Shown here: positions 6,976 to 64,000 of the stretch, in pieces
How the letters are laid out: each line of letters opens with the position of its first letter
Numbering within the stretch: the stretch's first letter is position 1
NCBI GenBank assembly: GCA_030426355.1
Contig: JAUHYQ010000004.1
Coordinates: forward strand, 1 to 64,000
Reading direction: 5' to 3'
Source of the DNA: Gammaproteobacteria bacterium
GTDB lineage: Bacteria; Pseudomonadota; Gammaproteobacteria; Steroidobacterales; GCA-2729495
Length of the DNA stretch: 64,000 bases
Translations under genes and position numbers: made by a program
Notes under the pieces: model-generated
What the model was told of the DNA's origin: nothing
Databases searched by the model: none
The model's input: the letters and a program-made list of their open reading frames with translations, nothing else

Positions 6976-8034
6976 ATGGCGAACGATATCACCGGAAAGC
7001 TGCCTGACGAGCGGGCCAAGCATATTCTGCGCACGTTGGTGCAGCAGTTTATCCGTGATGGCCAGCCGGTGGGTTCGCGCACGCTTTCCAAGGCCAGTGG
7101 TCTGAGTCTGAGCCCGGCGACTATCCGGAACGTGATGGCTGACCTTGAGGATTTCGGGTTTATTGCGTCCCCCCACACTTCGGCCGGGCGTGTGCCCACT
7201 CCCAAGGGGTATCGCTTTTTTGTGGATGCCCTCATGAAGTTTTCGCCGGTCGACGAGCAGTCATTGCGCGAACTGCAGATTTTGCTGACAGACGAGCAGC
7301 AACTCGATCGGCGAGCCGTTGCCGAGACGGCCTCAACCGCTTTGTCGGCGCTAACGAGCATGGCGGGCCTGGTGACACTTCCAAAGCAGGCGCACGTGAC
7401 CCTGCGGCAAATTGAATTTCTGCCGATCTCCGATCGACGAGTGCTAACTATCCTGGTGACCAGCGAGTCTGAGGTGCAGAACCGTATTCTTAATATGGAC
7501 CGCGATTTCAAACCGGATGAGCTGCGCCGCGCTGCCAATTACCTGAATGATAATTTTGCCGGAAAGGAAATCAGCGACATTCGTCGGCTGGTGCTTGAAG
7601 AGCTCGAGCAAACTCAGCAGACCATGAATCAGTTGATGATCGACACCATTACATTCGCACAGCGAGCCTTGGATGCTGAATCGAGCAGCGGTTTCGTGAT
7701 GACCGGCGAAACCAAGCTGATGAATTATGACGAGTTGTCCGATATCAACAAGTTGCGCAAATTGTTCGAAGCCTTTAGTCAGCAGCGGGAGATACTCGGC
7801 CTGCTCGACCGCAGCATAGCGGCCGACGGGGTGCAGATATTTATTGGGGAAGAGTCCGGGTACCAGATGCTCGACAGTTGCAGCATCGTGACTGCGCCTT
7901 ACAAAGTTAACAACGATGTGGTCGGTGTTTTGGGCGTGATCGGCCCGACCCGCATGGCCTATGAACGCGTTGTCCCGATTGTCGATATCACTGCCAAACT
8001 GGTCGGTGCCGCGCTGAACCAGAGCTCGCAGTAG
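6976..8034 (+). CDS. hrcA: Heat-inducible transcription repressor HrcA
   Basis: HrcA represses chaperone genes by binding CIRCE operators. The 352-residue protein has the winged-helix N-terminus (residues 1-95, with SPATIRNVMADLEDFGFIAS and HTSAGRVPTPKGYRFFV) and a GAF-like C-terminal half ending GPTRMAYERVVPIVDITAKL. The ATG at 6976 has no Shine-Dalgarno sequence; TAGAAT lies at 6963-6968, so a leaderless or near-leaderless mRNA is possible. It is followed by grpE-dnaK-dnaJ. I found no CIRCE (GCACTC with GAGTGC at 9-base spacing) upstream of these genes, so its target is probably groESL elsewhere. Confidence 0.95.
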   Translation: MANDITGKLPDERAKHILRTLVQQFIRDGQPVGSRTLSKASGLSLSPATIRNVMADLEDFGFIASPHTSAGRVPTPKGYRFFVDALMKFSPVDEQSLRELQILLTDEQQLDRRAVAETASTALSALTSMAGLVTLPKQAHVTLRQIEFLPISDRRVLTILVTSESEVQNRILNMDRDFKPDELRRAANYLNDNFAGKEISDIRRLVLEELEQTQQTMNQLMIDTITFAQRALDAESSSGFVMTGETKLMNYDELSDINKLRKLFEAFSQQREILGLLDRSIAADGVQIFIGEESGYQMLDSCSIVTAPYKVNNDVVGVLGVIGPTRMAYERVVPIVDITAKLVGAALNQSSQ

Positions 8035-54846: not shown

Positions 54847-55884
54847 CTACCGGTAGCGGTCATCGCTGTCGCGATACTGTCGTTCGGCAACTTCGCGTCG
54901 CTCTTGTGCTTCCACGCAGAGGGTTGCAACCGGGCGCGCTTCGAGACGCTTAAGCCCGATTTCTTCGCCGGTTTCTTCGCAATAACCGTATTCGCCGTCG
55001 TCTATTCTGCTAAGCGCTTGTTCAATTTTTTTCAGCAGTTTGCGTTCGCGATCCCGTGTGCGTAATTCGAGGCTAAATTCCGATTCCTGCGTCGCTCGAT
55101 CATTAGGATCCGGGAAATTGCTGGCCTCATCCTGCATGTGATGCACGGTGCGATCGACTTCTTCCATCAACTCGCGCTTCCACGCGTTCAGTATGTTGCG
55201 AAAATGCTCGAGCTGCGCATCGTTCATATACTCTTCGCCAGCTTTAGCCACGTAGGGCTCGATGCCATGAATGAGTTGATCCGAGTTAACCTTGCGGCGT
55301 TTAGGTCGACGCGGCATATGATCGGCCGGGTTCATTGGTTGCGCAATTGTGCTATGTGCAACAAAGCGTTTGGCCGGGCTTTTTACCACGACCTTTTTGA
55401 CAACCTTGACGTCCGGCTGTTGCGCCGCTGCCTTAGGTTTCTGTTTGCTGACCTTGCCTGCAGGCGCTTTCTTTGTCGGCAGCTTCTTTGCCGACGTTGC
55501 TGTGTTCTTGCTAACTTTCTTCTTCCTTGAAGTGATTTTCTTCTTTGTCGAAGCCTTCTTCTTCGACGCCTTTTTCTTGCTTACTTTCTTTTTGGATGCC
55601 TTCTTTTTTGACACCTTCTTCTTAGAGGCCTTTTTCTTGCTTACTTTCTTTTTCGACACCTTCTTCTTAGAAGTCTTTTTCTTGCTTACTTTCTTTTTGG
55701 ACGCCTTCTTTTTCGACACCTTCTTCTTGGAAGCTTTTTTCTTGCTTACCTTCTTTTTGGCAGCCGCCTTTTTACGGCTCGCCTTTTTACTGGCAACCTT
55801 TTTCTTGGGCGCAGTTTTCTTCTTTGAAACGCGCTTGGCCGATTTTTTCGTTGACTTTTTTGAAGCCTTTTTTCGTGCTGCCAT
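54847..55884 (-). CDS. dksA: RNA polymerase-binding factor DksA with lysine-rich N-terminus
   Basis: Works with ppGpp at the polymerase secondary channel. The last 140 or so of 345 residues are a normal DksA: coiled coil with EYMNDAQLEHFRNILNAWKREL, acidic tip in SNFPDPNDRATQESE, and the C-terminal globular domain. Two of the four zinc cysteines are replaced (CEET and CVEA instead of CxxC), so zinc binding is doubtful. The first 170 residues are very rich in Lys, Ala and Ser, with thirteen SKKKA/V/T pentapeptides (residues 47-111), like histone H1 tails. Related extensions are known in Xanthomonadales. Confidence 0.95.
   Translation of the reverse strand: MAARKKASKKSTKKSAKRVSKKKTAPKKKVASKKASRKKAAAKKKVSKKKASKKKVSKKKASKKKVSKKKTSKKKVSKKKVSKKKASKKKVSKKKASKKKVSKKKASKKKASTKKKITSRKKKVSKNTATSAKKLPTKKAPAGKVSKQKPKAAAQQPDVKVVKKVVVKSPAKRFVAHSTIAQPMNPADHMPRRPKRRKVNSDQLIHGIEPYVAKAGEEYMNDAQLEHFRNILNAWKRELMEEVDRTVHHMQDEASNFPDPNDRATQESEFSLELRTRDRERKLLKKIEQALSRIDDGEYGYCEETGEEIGLKRLEARPVATLCVEAQERREVAERQYRDSDDRYR
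55552..55746 (-). repeat. 15-bp coding repeats in dksA
   Basis: Thirteen tandem units encode Ser-Lys-Lys-Lys followed by Ala, Val or Thr. At the DNA level they differ mainly at third positions, with longer blocks nearly identical, so slippage and length variation between strains are likely. Confidence 0.9.
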
Positions 55885-55924
55885 TTTCCCTGCTTTCCCC
55901 CGTAGGGCCTCTGCAAAACGCGGA

Positions 55925-55952
55925 ATTATACAGCGTGCGGAGGCCGTGGGAA
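55925..55952 (-). promoter_or_regulatory. Promoter of dksA
   Basis: On the minus strand TTCCCA (55952-55947) and a perfect TATAAT (55930-55925) are 16 bases apart, about 40 bases before the dksA ATG. It implies dksA-gluQ can be expressed apart from queF. Confidence 0.7.
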
Positions 55953-55981
55953 GCCATATTCGACCCTAGATTCAGGCGAAT

Positions 55982-56428
55982 TCAGGCGGTTGTGGGACCC
56001 GGCACCGGCGGCGGCAGAATATCCGGTGAGGGCGGAGTCCAGCCAGGGTGGCGGTGCTCTGCGATGACCGTCGTATAGATGCCGCCACGGACATTAAAGC
56101 GGGCTGTGAGCCTTATATAGCGGGGCTCCAGGGCTTTGGTCAGGTCGTCCAGCATCTGGTTGGTAACGGCTTCGTGGAAGGCCCCTTCGTTCCGGTATGA
56201 CCAGATGTACTGTTTCAGTGATTTGAGTTCCACGCAGGCCGCTTCGGGTATATAGTCGAGATACAGCGTCGCGAAGTCTGGCTGACCCGTTTTCGGGCAC
56301 AGGCAGGTGAACTCCGGGATACGTATCCGGATGCTATAATCGCGGCCAGGGTTAGGGTTGTTGAAAGTTTCCAGTTCCCTGCGGGGGGAGCCAGTTGCGG
56401 ATATAGAATTACGATCCTGCGTATTCAT
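55982..56428 (-). CDS. queF: NADPH-dependent preQ0 reductase QueF (short type)
   Basis: Reduces preQ0 to preQ1 in queuosine synthesis. The 148-residue single-domain form has the catalytic Cys in [10 protein letters not shown] with the following Asp, and the QueF motif [21 protein letters not shown]. coli has a longer two-domain form. A 10-bp near-repeat (TTCAGGCG twice, 55971-55990) spans its stop. It is divergent from smc and lies upstream of dksA-gluQ on the same strand. Confidence 0.95.
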
Positions 56429-56509
56429 AAATTAAATTAAGACTCAGGTCTGTGTTTGGTTGCGCTCAGGTGGGGCGCTACTTTACACCACGCGGTGCAT
56501 AAAGGAAGT

Positions 56510-59500
56510 ATGCGACTAAGCAAGATTAAGCTGGCCGGCTTTAAGTCCTTCGTCGATCCGACGACCATTGTTTTGCCGAGTAACCTCGTGGGCGTTGTTG
56601 GTCCTAATGGTTGCGGCAAATCCAACGTGATTGACGCAGTGCGGTGGGTGATGGGGGAGACCTCTGCCAAGAACCTGCGCGGTGAGTCCATGGCCGACGT
56701 AATATTCAATGGTTCGGCCAATCGCAAGCCCATAGGGGCCGCCACTATCGAATTGGTTTTCGATAATGCCGACGGCATGATTGGTGGTCAGTTTGCGAAC
56801 TACGGCGAGGTGGCTGTTCGTCGCACCGTGACCCGGGACGGTCAATCACAGTATTTTCTGAACAATGTGCGCTGCCGTCGCAAAGACATTACCCATATTT
56901 TTCTCGGCACCGGTCTGGGGCCTCGTAGTTACGCAATTATTGAACAGGGGATGATATCCCGTCTGATTGAGGCGAAGCCTGAGGAGATGCGTGCGCATCT
57001 TGAAGAGGCAGCCGGCATATCCAAGTACAAAGAGCGTCGTCGTGAAACCGAGAACCGTATCCGGCATACGCGCGATAACCTTGATCGCCTGAACGATTTA
57101 CGTGAAGAAGTCGAAAATCAGCTGGCTCATCTACAAAAGCAGGCACGCGCAGCGGAGCGTCATACCGCATTGAAAGATGAGCAGCGCCAGGTGCAGGCGG
57201 AGCTGTTGGCCATTGACCTCAAAAATATTGATGCACGGGTGCATGAAGAGGGTATGGCATTAGCACGGCAAAAAACCGAACTGGAGGCTGCCATTGCGGC
57301 ACAGCGTCGCGTGGAGGCAGAGATTGAAGAAGCGCGTCAGCAGCAGATACTTGCCGGTGATGAGCTGAATGCCACAACGGCGCGGCATTATTCCGTTGAC
57401 CTCGAGATCTCCCATCTGGAGCAGGCAATTGAGCACAATCGCGCAACGCGCGAGCGTCAGCAGATGGACTTGGAAGAAGCAAACCAGCGGTTGGCCGATA
57501 TCAGCGCCGAAATCAGTCAGGACGAAGCGCAATTGCGCGAACTGGACAAGCAGCTGGAAGAGCTCGCGCCTGGCGTGGATGAGGTGCAGCGCAAGGCGCA
57601 GACTTCCAGTGTGCGTCTCGACTCCGCGGAAAAAGAACTTGCACGCTGGCAGGAGAACTGGAACGCATTCAGTGAAGAGCTGAACCAGGCTCGTCGCGTC
57701 GTAGAAGTCGAAACTGCTCGTATCGGGCACCTGCACGAAAAGCAAGAGCAGCTTTCGCAACGTCGCGCCAGTCTCGATCAAGAGCGCGGCAGTATTTCCC
57801 TGAACGAGCTTGAGGATCGGCTCGCTGCATTGATTCGTGCGGAACGCGAATTAGGCGAACGCGAACAGCAGGTTACCAAGCGCTTTCAGGAGACCGTGCG
57901 TGAGCTGGAAGCATTGCGTCGAGCAAGTGAAAGCGCGGCGACAGAATTGCAGGATGTGCGCGGCGAGCTGGACTCTTCGCGAGCACGCCTCGGGGCGCTG
58001 GAAACCTTGCAGCGGGCCGCGCTTGGCGGTGACGAGGCCAGTGCCACCGAATGGCTGGAAGCTCAGCAGTTGGGTGATCGCAAGCGTCTGGCCCAGAAAC
58101 TGGAAGTGGCCGACGGGTGGCAGACCGCAGTCGAAACCGTGCTGGGTGATTTCCTGCAAGCCGTGTCAGTGGAGAAAGTTGACAAGCACCTTCGCAGTCT
58201 GCCGGATGCAAATGTGCTGCTATTCGAAGACGATGCGCTGAAATATGCGGAGGACGGCAAGGACGGATATCTGTTAGCGCACGTCCGTAATGCGGGTCCT
58301 GCAGCGGACATGTTGTCGACGGTGCGCACGGCTGCTTCCTTGAACGAGGCGATGGCGCTGCGCGGTCGGCTGGCGCACGGTGAATCGATTATTACCCCGG
58401 AAGGCGTTTGGTTGAGCCGTAACTGGGTAAGGGTTTCCCGCGGTGATGCTGAAGCCGGCGGTGTGTTGACCCGTGAAACCGAAATGCGGGAAATCCATAG
58501 CGGTATACGCTCGCTTGAGTCTCGGTTGGCCAGTCTGACTGCCCGACAAAGCGAAGCTAAGGCCGGTATCGAGCGTCAGGAGGCCGCGCGCGAGCAATTG
58601 CACGACGCGCGCACTAAGGCAGCCAAAGAGCACGGTGCCGCTGCTGCTCGCCTTACGGCATTGCGCGCAGAATTTGATAAGTCCCGGCAACGGTCGCTGG
58701 CCTTGGGCGAAGACAGCCAGAATATTGAGCAATCGTTGGATGAAGTCGCCAACGCCATTCGGGAGTCGGAAACCAAGTTGGCGAGCGCGGCAGAGCAGTC
58801 CGGTTTGCTCGACAGTAAGGTGGCCGAGCTGCAGGCGCAGCAGTCGCAATTACTGAAGGAAGTGGAATCTGCGCGGGCCCAGGCCGAGGCCGACCGGGAG
58901 GCGTTCCATAGCCTGACCATTCAGGTGCAGTCACAGCGCTCCAGCCGCGAGTCGGCGACGACCACGTTGGAGCGCGCCTTGTCACAGCGCGGCCAGCTTA
59001 TGGATCGGGTCGAGAGCTTGAAGGCGCATCTTGCCGGAGGTGAGGCACCGCTGGTCGAGCTTCAGGATAAGTTACAGGCCCAGCTCGCGTTGAAGGTAAC
59101 CGTGGATGATGAGTTGCGCGGTAAACACGAAGCGCTGGAACAAGCCAATATCGGCCTGCGTGAGCAGGAGACCCGACGCTCAGAGCAGGAAAAGAAGGTC
59201 AGTGCGGTGCGCGAAAGTGCCGACACAATGCGTATGGCCGTGCGCGAGCTTGAAATTCGTCGCGAAAACATTGCTGAGCGGTTTGCTGCAACGGGAATGG
59301 TGCTTGAAGAAGTTCAGCAAGGTCTGCCCGCCGATTACACGCCCGAAGCATGGAATGCGCGTCTGGAAAAGATTCAGACTCGTCTGGATCGCATCGGCAC
59401 CGTCAATCTGTTAGCCATCGAAGAATTCGAAGAGCAGTCTGAGCGAGCGAAATACCTTGAGGAGCAGCACGCGGATTTGAGCAAGGCCCTGGATACACTT

Positions 59501-60004
59501 GAGCGCGCTATACGTAAAATCGATAAGGAAACGCGGCAGCGTTTTCAGGAAGTGTTCGATGCAGTCAATGTGGGTTTAAAGAAACTGTTCCCGCGTTTGT
59601 TTGGCGGCGGCCACGCCTACATGAGTCTGGAAGGTGATGATCTGCTAAACGCCGGTGTGACGGTAATGGCGCAGCCTCCTGGCAAACGCAATAGCAGTAT
59701 TCATTTGCTGTCAGGCGGAGAAAAAGCCTTGACTGCCGTGGCGCTTGTATTTTCGATATTCGAACTGAATCCGGCTCCGTTCTGTTTACTGGACGAGGTG
59801 GATGCGCCTTTAGATGATGCCAACGTCGGTCGTTTTTGCGACATCGTCCGTGAGATGTCAGCTAACGTTCAGTTTCTGTTTATTACGCACAACAAGGTAA
59901 CGATGGAAATGGCCAGCCAGCTCACGGGTGTGACCATGGGTGAACCGGGCGTATCGCGTCTGGTATCCGTCGATATTGATGAGGCGGTTAAACTCGCCGG
60001 CTAA
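56510..60004 (+). CDS. smc: Chromosome condensation protein SMC
   Basis: The core ATPase of the SMC-ScpAB condensin. It has 1164 residues: Walker A GPNGCGKSNVIDA (about residues 32-44), two long coiled coils, a hinge near 510-680, the signature HLLSGGEKALTAVA and Walker B FCLLDEVDAPLDD. ATG at 56510 has AAAGGAAG upstream and gives the usual MRLSKIKLAGFKSF start. scpA and scpB are not in this window. zipA follows after 23 bp. Confidence 0.97.
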   Translation: MRLSKIKLAGFKSFVDPTTIVLPSNLVGVVGPNGCGKSNVIDAVRWVMGETSAKNLRGESMADVIFNGSANRKPIGAATIELVFDNADGMIGGQFANYGEVAVRRTVTRDGQSQYFLNNVRCRRKDITHIFLGTGLGPRSYAIIEQGMISRLIEAKPEEMRAHLEEAAGISKYKERRRETENRIRHTRDNLDRLNDLREEVENQLAHLQKQARAAERHTALKDEQRQVQAELLAIDLKNIDARVHEEGMALARQKTELEAAIAAQRRVEAEIEEARQQQILAGDELNATTARHYSVDLEISHLEQAIEHNRATRERQQMDLEEANQRLADISAEISQDEAQLRELDKQLEELAPGVDEVQRKAQTSSVRLDSAEKELARWQENWNAFSEELNQARRVVEVETARIGHLHEKQEQLSQRRASLDQERGSISLNELEDRLAALIRAERELGEREQQVTKRFQETVRELEALRRASESAATELQDVRGELDSSRARLGALETLQRAALGGDEASATEWLEAQQLGDRKRLAQKLEVADGWQTAVETVLGDFLQAVSVEKVDKHLRSLPDANVLLFEDDALKYAEDGKDGYLLAHVRNAGPAADMLSTVRTAASLNEAMALRGRLAHGESIITPEGVWLSRNWVRVSRGDAEAGGVLTRETEMREIHSGIRSLESRLASLTARQSEAKAGIERQEAAREQLHDARTKAAKEHGAAAARLTALRAEFDKSRQRSLALGEDSQNIEQSLDEVANAIRESETKLASAAEQSGLLDSKVAELQAQQSQLLKEVESARAQAEADREAFHSLTIQVQSQRSSRESATTTLERALSQRGQLMDRVESLKAHLAGGEAPLVELQDKLQAQLALKVTVDDELRGKHEALEQANIGLREQETRRSEQEKKVSAVRESADTMRMAVRELEIRRENIAERFAATGMVLEEVQQGLPADYTPEAWNARLEKIQTRLDRIGTVNLLAIEEFEEQSERAKYLEEQHADLSKALDTLERAIRKIDKETRQRFQEVFDAVNVGLKKLFPRLFGGGHAYMSLEGDDLLNAGVTVMAQPPGKRNSSIHLLSGGEKALTAVALVFSIFELNPAPFCLLDEVDAPLDDANVGRFCDIVREMSANVQFLFITHNKVTMEMASQLTGVTMGEPGVSRLVSVDIDEAVKLAG

Positions 60005-60027
60005 TTCCGAGGATAGGGTCTGCTGTT

Positions 60028-62744
<2,717 letters not shown>

Positions 62745-62779
62745 TGTAAATCGCACCGCTGCCGCTGCGTGCCCACTTC

Positions 62780-62818
62780 ACAATAAGTCATTGATTTATT
62801 GTTCTTGGCTGCTATAAA
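62780..62818 (+). promoter_or_regulatory. Promoter and inverted repeat before the DUF6502-like gene
   Basis: TTGATT (62791-62796) and TATAAA (62813-62818), 16 bases apart, form a promoter. An inverted repeat, ACAATAA (62780-62786) with TTATTGT (62796-62802), overlaps the -35 and could be an operator. Confidence 0.5.
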
Positions 62819-62860
62819 TGGTCTTGAATGACCCTATGTGGTTGGTATAAGTGAGGCCCA

Positions 62861-63685
62861 ATGACCAGTCCGCTGCAAAAACGAATATTGGAGGCGCTTG
62901 TCGTTGCAATGAAGCCGTTAGCCAGAGCTCTCTTAGCTTCGGGAATTACCTTTAAGCAATTCGAGGAAGTTAGTAAGTGCGCATTCGTTGCAGTAGCGGC
63001 TTCTGACTACGGCATTAGAGGGCGACCCACCAATAATTCTCGAATAGCAGTTATTACCGGTCTCGGGCGCAAAGAAGTAAAGCGCTTGCGTGATCAGGAG
63101 TCTGGACAATGGCCAAGTGAATTTATTACAGAATCGCCTGCGTCTATTTTGTTACACAACTGGAATAACGATCCTGATTATCAGGATGAAAACGGCGAAC
63201 CATTAATTCTTCATTACGATTCGGGGTATCCTTCGTTCGTTTCGTTGGTGGCAAAATACGCTGGCGATATTCCACCTGGCGCGATGAAAACGGAGCTTAA
63301 TCGTGTAAGTGCCATTGAAGAGCTTGACGATGATCGCATTAAAGTTAAAACGCCATATTTCGTTCCGCCAGGACTAGGAGATCGTCTGATTATTGGGTTG
63401 GAGGAAGGTGCGTCTACTTTACTCAGCACGTTAGCGTATAACTGCGATCCAAAGCGCGTAGAAGAGCCGCGATTCCAAAGAGTGGCTAGCGTAGATGGAA
63501 TACATTCTGATTTTCACGGCGAAATAGAGGAGTATGCGAAGGAGCACCTTACGACCATTGGCCTCGATTTTTGCACATACCTAGACGCGTACCATCGTAA
63601 GAGCCTAGTAAAAAGTGGAGAAGATCAGGAGGTCAGCCAAGTTGGTATTGGCTTGTACTATTACAAATTAAGGGAAACTAACTAG
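62861..63685 (+). CDS. DUF6502-like protein of unknown function
   Basis: A 274-residue soluble protein that I believe belongs to the DUF6502 group, from its N-terminal pattern LARALLASGITFKQFEEVSKCAFVAVA followed by TNNSRIAVITGLGRKEVKRLRD (about residues 18-78), which looks like a helix-turn-helix-type fold. The rest is mixed and unfamiliar. No signal or membrane segment. Its base composition is clearly more AT-rich than the genes to its left, which may mean later acquisition. GAGG precedes the ATG at 62861. The stop TAG is 18 bp before a 24-bp repeat array, which continues in the same frame. Confidence 0.7.
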   Translation: MTSPLQKRILEALVVAMKPLARALLASGITFKQFEEVSKCAFVAVAASDYGIRGRPTNNSRIAVITGLGRKEVKRLRDQESGQWPSEFITESPASILLHNWNNDPDYQDENGEPLILHYDSGYPSFVSLVAKYAGDIPPGAMKTELNRVSAIEELDDDRIKVKTPYFVPPGLGDRLIIGLEEGASTLLSTLAYNCDPKRVEEPRFQRVASVDGIHSDFHGEIEEYAKEHLTTIGLDFCTYLDAYHRKSLVKSGEDQEVSQVGIGLYYYKLRETN

Positions 63686-63703
63686 CCTGGCAATAATGCC
63701 TAT

Positions 63704-64000
63704 CGGACACCGCTGCCACGAATGGCCCGGACACCGCTGCCACGAATGGCCCGGACACCGCTGCCACGAATGGCCCGGACACCGCTGCCACGGATAGCCC
63801 GGACACCGCTGCCACGGATAGCCCGGACACCGCTGCCACGGATAGCCCGGACACCGCTGCCACGGATAGCCCGGACACCGCTGCCACGAATGGCCCGGAC
63901 ACCGCTGCCACGAATAGCCCGGACACCGCTGCCACGAATAGCCCGGACACCGCTGCCACGGATAGCCCGGACACCGCTGCCACGGATAGCCCGGACACCG
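63704..64000. repeat. 24-bp tandem repeat array (minisatellite), runs off the edge
   Basis: Twelve full 24-bp units and a 9-base partial unit fill the window end. Each is CGGACACCGCTGCCACG plus a 7-base tail. Tails in order are AATGGCC three times, GATAGCC four times, AATGGCC once, AATAGCC twice, GATAGCC twice. Only two positions vary. Because 24 is a multiple of three, several frames stay open: one reads PDTAAT-DS/NG on the plus strand but is preceded by a stop with no start codon; another continues the frame of the upstream gene past its TAG. There are no spacers, so it is not CRISPR. Whether it is coding is unresolved. Confidence 0.9.

Follow-up and report, generated by a model that had tools for sequence, protein, structure and literature searches.

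A 24-bp tandem array beside ligA in a gammaproteobacterium is very probably the coding octapeptide tail of a DUF5666 protein

The 24-bp tandem array at the end of the window (the whole stretch of 64,000 nucleotides analysed here, from a gammaproteobacterial genome) is part of a real, coding and recurring repeat tail, and its ordinary kind is the coding minisatellite. Almost certainly, it encodes on the minus strand the C-terminal tail of a DUF5666 protein that is predicted to be exported. The best combined explanation, to which we give a probability of about 0.6, is that this coding tail descends from an amplified motif and would form an extension in the cell envelope whose octads associate. 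Less ordinary are the gene cassette in which the tail occurs, the unit words that change from lineage to lineage and a candidate ancestor motif.

Tandem Repeats Finder (TRF) places the array at 63704-64000, with a period of 24 bp, 12.4 copies, 97% matches and a score of 524, in agreement with the coordinates and unit length of the original prediction. The window covers the first part of contig C8 (473 kb), from a 2.82-Mb genome in 11 contigs that is 99.69% complete. In an extended sequence (C8:60000-79000, locus L003, whose positions are those of C8 less 59999), TRF finds 18.0 copies at C8:63704-64135, i.e. L003:3705-4136. Extending to the right, as had been proposed, thus located both the array end, at 18 units, and the gene that the array enters, the minus-strand DUF5666 gene. 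Since the array is internal to a 473-kb contig of an 11-contig, 99.69% complete genome, it is not a contig-end artefact; the precise number of units remains subject to the assembly. On the plus strand the unit variants follow the order ccc aaaa c bb aa c aaa c b, the first five blocks of which are the three, four, one, two and two units described earlier. Taken alone, their clustering is weak (9 runs versus 12.0 expected, P = 0.086 by permutation). Elsewhere in the window, a 345-aa minus-strand ORF (54847-55884) carries an N-terminal Lys/Ala/Ser-rich repeat (KKASKKKVSKKK) and spans TRF tandem repeats at 55540-55773; by reading, its C-terminal part looks like a DksA/TraR-type zinc-finger protein.

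The window contains the 3′ end of the DUF5666-repeat gene (63700-64000, minus strand). The whole gene, defined by its ORF, its translation and Pfam family PF18914, occupies C8:64746-63700 and encodes 348 aa. It opens with an ATG at C8:64746, on the minus strand, and its TAG stop codon (63700-63702) comes right after the last unit. The protein matches DUF5666 with 29.1 bits (curated cut-off 27) over residues 53-119, and this is its only Pfam match up to E 10. The N-terminus reads as a probable signal peptide, with a short polar start, one lysine, a hydrophobic stretch and then SSIA-D. The order along the protein is a signal-peptide-like start, the DUF5666 core and 18 perfect copies of AIRGSGVR.

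All 18 units give this octapeptide on the minus strand (codon table). They comprise four variants that differ at three sites, each a third codon position of the AIRGSGVR frame. This frame alone yields one peptide, and each of the other five yields several. A protein-coding repeat had been among the options of the original prediction, and that option stands; its strand and frame do not, as the plus-strand peptides RTPLPR and PDTAATDS, which can indeed be read there, vary between units and the minus-strand AIRGSGVR never does. Because three variable sites are weak evidence alone, the test was widened to relatives' arrays. The 33 scored arrays (our own and 32 from relatives) are those over the repeat threshold among our own gene and 53 ORFs, at least six of which belong to other genes; among the 56 loci considered, L124 and L125 were left out of the ORF step and L102 yielded no ORF. 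Differences between adjacent units were synonymous in 954 cases and nonsynonymous in 292 (pN/pS 0.111), and third codon positions held 938 of the 1246. A six-frame comparison covered the 32 arrays that have three or more differences; by synonymous fraction, the coding frame ranked first or tied for first in 30 of them. Selection preserves the octapeptide AIRGSGVR, not the DNA. At the sequence level, the array has the properties of a coding minisatellite: 18 units of 24 bp, a multiple of three, a single octapeptide in one frame and a peptide under selection.

Two readings that give the array another role can be judged on the same counts. That it acts as DNA or RNA, as a structured 3′ end or a terminator between convergent genes with its coding incidental, is very improbable. 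The array does lie between two convergent stops, and its RNA (L003:3690-4140, minus strand) folds at -242.2 kcal/mol versus a mean of -221.3 in 100 dinucleotide shuffles (z -3.7), which is possibly a mere by-product of a repeated GC-rich unit. Against such a role, 938 of the 1246 differences fall at wobble positions, and relatives with different unit peptides still keep the array and the DUF5666 core in one reading frame. Rfam gave no match in the window at 55000-64000, which includes part of the array only, and a promoter and terminator scan gave no excess over shuffles (1 versus 4.7 and 5 versus 4.3). The DUF5666 ORF with its conserved neighbours spans the whole array, and is thus an ordinary gene of the kind that the original prediction had named as its own refutation. 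The other reading, that RTPLPR is a used readthrough extension of the plus-strand DUF6502 gene, is less probable still. As the original prediction observed, the array begins 18 bp past the TAG of that gene, a spacing of six codons in frame with it, and the frame would yield RTPLPR. One antisense frame (RTPLPR in our own array) has its wobble positions opposite those of the coding frame; its pN/pS is 0.233 over the 33 arrays, and in L074 and L096 its synonymous fraction exceeds that of the sense frame. This opposition makes it seem partly constrained, and it behaves as the shadow of the real frame: among differences synonymous in only one of the sense and best antisense frames, 206 favour sense and 40 antisense, so that 24 arrays lean to sense, one leans to antisense and eight are tied. 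Moreover, 7 of the 14 differences in our own array alter the RTPLPR frame. Both comparisons favour the coding tail on the minus strand.

This tail belongs to a recurrent cassette, DUF6502 -> DUF5666-repeat <- DUF6502, which lies beside ligA in relatives from one gammaproteobacterial order. In our genome, ligA (60708-62744, plus strand) is the left neighbour of the cassette, as in relatives. The convergent partner is a DUF6502 gene of 274 aa (62861-63685, plus strand; PF20112, 96.7 bits, cut-off 27), recognised also by its position in relatives, and the gap between the two convergent stops is 14 bp (63686-63699). Outside the window, a second DUF6502 gene lies upstream on the repeat gene's strand (C8:65572-64754; PF20112, 158.1 bits, cut-off 27), and the repeat gene starts 7 bp past its stop. 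None of the three cassette proteins has an NCBIfam match. Across 21 loci (our own and 20 chosen from the matches), a DUF6502 gene lies upstream on the repeat gene's strand in every case. A convergent second DUF6502 gene is present in 13 of them and stands elsewhere in two (L063 and L069); in the remaining six the contig ends in the array or the core. The repeat ORFs of L055, L059, L063, L067 and L068 were identified from separate ORF readings and not by the neighbourhood script. Where the contig reaches, LigA, then ZipA and SMC follow on one side, and BolA, YciI, YciB, SUA5, M50, ScpA, ScpB and RluB on the other. Some loci lack a match to single flanking genes, and the seven loci of genus g4 (L050, L051, L053, L057, L058, L065 and L067) showed no BolA side.

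Scanning genome contigs with our own protein as query returned nothing; a scan with a DUF6502 alignment returned the 56 loci, with labels such as Gammaproteobacteria bacterium, Woeseia, Woeseiaceae, Chromatiales and Nevskiales, and a few odd ones (Rhodospirillaceae and Planctomycetales, for example). The first search of relatives matched 29 of 60 genomes, and at least two weak matches (L028 and L029) turned out on inspection not to be relatives. DUF6502 was present in 51 of the 60 relatives (E up to 0.001) and in 50 of 184 genomes sampled at class level (E up to 1e-15), where it adjoined a DUF5666 gene in 17 of 20 loci picked from the best DUF6502 matches. The N-terminal part of DUF6502 resembles, by reading, a putative helix-turn-helix, and the best PDB match of the DUF6502 profile is a weak one to an 'immunity repressor protein' (E = 0.051). 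The flanking DUF6502 partners, as putative regulators, might control expression of the repeat gene.

The unit differs from lineage to lineage and is homogenised within the array; most units follow the scheme [GAS]-I-x-G-[ST]-[GD]-x-x. The words found include AIRGSGVR in our own genome, GLRGQRGT, GITGSGVR, GINGSGMR, GLKGSGVR and AITGTDVR, and further SITGSDAL, GIHGSDAL, SINGSDGM, AIGGTNVQ, AIGGTRAK and AIVGSGTE. The net charge of the unit is not conserved (compare AIRGSGVR, AITGTDVR and SITGSDAL); the I-x-G-[ST] core is, in most cases. Of the 33 arrays, 28 repeat best at a period of 8, 16 or 24 residues; the five others have units of 9 residues (L092, L109) or 10 (L096, L097, L107). The array stands behind the core in our own genus. 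Woeseia-type relatives and part of our own family carry it ahead of the core, and L070, L086, L090 and L091 on both sides. A contig end cuts 15 of the 32 related arrays, so copy numbers there are lower bounds. Inside octad arrays, 16 of 18 motif-skipping gaps measure exactly 16 residues and two measure 17; for this count six ORFs of other genes were excluded and L023 was added, and spacings of 5 and 11 in L070, where an extra match falls inside a 16, were left uncounted. D-rich spacer octads, several of them copies of one another, break the arrays of L079, L086, L090, L091 and L023.

Some low-complexity arrays of relatives match unrelated Pfam families. The tail of a genus-mate (L092:6792-7634, about seven units of GLRGSSGIR) exceeds the Pfam cut-off for the Collagen triple helix repeat (39.9 bits), because its nine-residue unit gives a G-x-x triplet pattern. 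The AIGGTYEQ/AIGGTYGQ array of L101 (6820-7500) matches the prion copper-binding octapeptide region with 70.9 bits, the pure unit with 58.4. One of four AIGGTYEQ scrambles also matches Prion_octapep weakly (13.8 bits), its only match among scrambled units, and ALTTAQ was matched once by a scramble (24.2 bits); Collagen and Ag332 had no scramble control. Matches to Prion_octapep, ALTTAQ, Collagen and Ag332 were set aside as products of repeat composition.

The unit has a candidate source. DUF5666 genes beside other DUF6502 genes often encode predicted lipoproteins with several DUF5666 units, in which a lipobox and a Gly- or Pro-rich stretch are followed by one motif such as GIGGTG, GIGRNG, GIDRSG or GIDGSG. 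In a set of 27 such ORFs, two of them without a start, GI-x-x-x-G stands near the start in 24 of the 25 with an intact start, L046 lacking it; three of the 24 motif-bearers were read by eye, the pattern having first matched the signal peptide. The G, I and G are invariant in 10 of 10 aligned motifs. At class level the motif was found in 12 of the 17 loci with such an ORF, and the printed start may be wrong in some of the other five. Our own genome has one ORF of this type, with the motif GIDRGGIR. In a lipoprotein model the single motif lies at the edge of the confident structure, where residues 32-44 have a pLDDT below 50 and block 41-50 averages 60. Judged by these likenesses in sequence, the arrays are probably amplified descendants of a single lipoprotein motif of the GIxGTG type. 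Slippage or unequal recombination in 24-bp steps would multiply that motif, and the same processes would homogenise the unit.

A close pair of genomes, G014 and G036, bears on homogenisation. They are 98.3% identical over 105 kb, and their DUF5666 cores differ at 6 of 579 bases. In one, 17 of 17 units read GINGSGMR and in the other 13 of 13 full units read GITGSG[MI]R, with N versus T at the third residue. The core being nearly identical and the word changed in every unit, the array must have been homogenised or replaced as a whole. When the 105 kb are cut into 700 windows of 150 bp, 13 show less than 90% identity, and besides the array two tracts fall below 80%: G036:C45:117601-117900 and the upstream DUF6502 gene. 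The former (L155, about 7601-7900) surrounds the start of an ORF that reads as an MFS-like transporter and takes in the gap preceding it. The latter shows 65 synonymous and 28 nonsynonymous codon changes, with the first ~87 residues identical and the middle and C-terminal part diverged. In the repeat loci of this pair, L050 (8370-8820) and L065, the DUF6502 tract is sharply bounded, about 450 bp long and ~78% identical, in surroundings that are ~98-99% identical. The divergent DUF6502 tract looks like a single import; no close donor was found among the loci compared. It is improbable that array and DUF6502 act in the envelope as a specificity pair that diversifies fast, in which the word would serve as a lineage tag rewritten in all copies at once and the DUF6502 domain that reads or controls it would be swapped along with it: the link between a DUF6502 swap and a new unit word comes from this one genome pair, from which co-change cannot be demonstrated.

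As for what the tail may do, an AlphaFold2 monomer model of a relative (L104, 12-row alignment) has a confident beta core at residues ~60-204 and a tail with a pLDDT of ~35 and no secondary structure. Such a tail would fit plain disorder as well as order that depends on assembly. The best structural matches of the core, which we take to be OB-fold proteins, are near background level (Foldseek E 4.9e-5, TM 0.23-0.27; Z 8.1 over 93 residues, rmsd 3.5), and PDB searches with the L074 and L082 arrays and with L099 gave nothing usable. The tail might be an expandable periplasmic or surface extension facing the envelope, in which copy number would set length or valency and the octads would become ordered when chains associate. 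Assembly in octad register is the least certain step and we propose it tentatively. The register may be retained only because the spacers are decayed units, several of them mutual copies, and the 9- and 10-residue units of 5 of the 33 arrays are awkward for one strict octad fold.

Two other accounts keep the same gene and differ in how its tail works. The tail may be disordered and act as a series of short linear motifs, in which every GIxG[ST]G unit would bind an envelope partner and copy number would tune avidity. The low pLDDT of the L104 tail agrees with this, as do the paralogues with one motif copy in a Gly- or Pro-rich stretch past the lipobox and the D-rich spacers that break the five arrays named above. 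However, such motifs have no need of an eight-residue register, yet 16 of the 18 motif-skipping gaps hold it. We prefer octads that order on association because of the register together with the D-rich spacers, the I-x-G-[ST] core and a charge that varies between units, and we regard free linear motifs as somewhat less likely. The tail could instead be a needle like that of T4 gp5, a triple-stranded beta-helix with the same eight-residue period. In gp5 octads, position a is glycine, b is N/D, g is valine and h is polar or charged (PMC3004832). The present units fit this in part: they show G at a, S/T at b, I or rarely L at g, and at h a residue that is often polar. Our own protein finds gp5 by phmmer (E 0.098), and Pfam Gp5_trimer_C is matched over its cut-off of 30.9 bits in L101 and L105. 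Residue order matters for a pure AIGGTRAK array (47.3 bits versus at most 19.3 in nine scrambles) and for AIGGTYEQ (28.6, below the cut-off, versus no match in four scrambles). For SITGSDAL it does not, the real unit scoring 17.9 and two of four scrambles 37.9 and 23.4; with all units pooled, five of the 17 scrambles give a match with E no higher than 1. Only 3 of 13 real units match as pure arrays, our own not among them up to E 1, and our own protein does not match Gp5_trimer_C (PF22178) up to E 10. Moreover, units of 9 and 10 residues exist, and one motif, as in the lipoproteins, cannot form a needle. Chiefly because our own unit never matches, we consider a needle quite unlikely and retain the envelope extension with associating octads.

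A search of the literature by the name DUF6502 found no paper, and for DUF5666 only a table entry appeared in the texts checked. Searches on octapeptide repeats, coding VNTRs, ice-nucleation octapeptides, GIGGTG and Woeseia repeats gave nothing on the present family in the portions of text available. As far as name searches for DUF6502 and DUF5666 show, the repeat-tail family is undescribed. The cassette unites two Pfam families of unknown function, DUF5666 and DUF6502, at one recurring place beside ligA. The lineage-specific octapeptide arrays form a natural series which, with a candidate single-copy ancestor, makes the birth and homogenisation of a repeat testable. The 15 cut arrays also carry a warning, that contig-end repeats in these genomes can be assembly-cut coding arrays.

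Several known systems invite comparison. RTX proteins have the nonapeptide repeat consensus GGxGxDxUx, and the RTX repeat profile of Pfam has no match in our own protein up to E 10. One relative (L106) weakly matches the grass antifreeze beta-roll (13.5 bits, cut-off 30). Like the present arrays, ice nucleation proteins of the InaZ type have long arrays divisible into octapeptides, and 4 of the 33 arrays here have a best period of 16 residues; their consensus GYGSTxTAxxxSxLxA (PMC3918373) is however not seen in the present arrays. No ice-nucleation profile was among the Pfam matches of ten sequences tested, our own protein included up to E 10. The C-terminal triple-stranded beta-helix of T4 gp5 shares the eight-residue period and has G and a beta-branched residue at corresponding octad positions, but the present units have S/T and not N/D at b, our own has no profile match and the matches of others partly survive scrambling. 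Compared with DUF5666 proteins (PF18914), our own has a core over the cut-off and a DUF6502 gene next door. The commonest form here, however, combines several DUF5666 units with a single GIxGTG-type motif in a lipoprotein that is often close to 490 aa long, whereas our own has one over-threshold DUF5666 stretch, no visible lipobox and an octapeptide array. In kind, the array resembles the coding minisatellites (VNTRs) of exported bacterial proteins, with which the array shares head-to-tail units of 3n bp, a kept frame, homogenisation and purifying selection on amino acids; unlike them, the present family keeps to a single site on the chromosome across members of an order, and each lineage has its own word.
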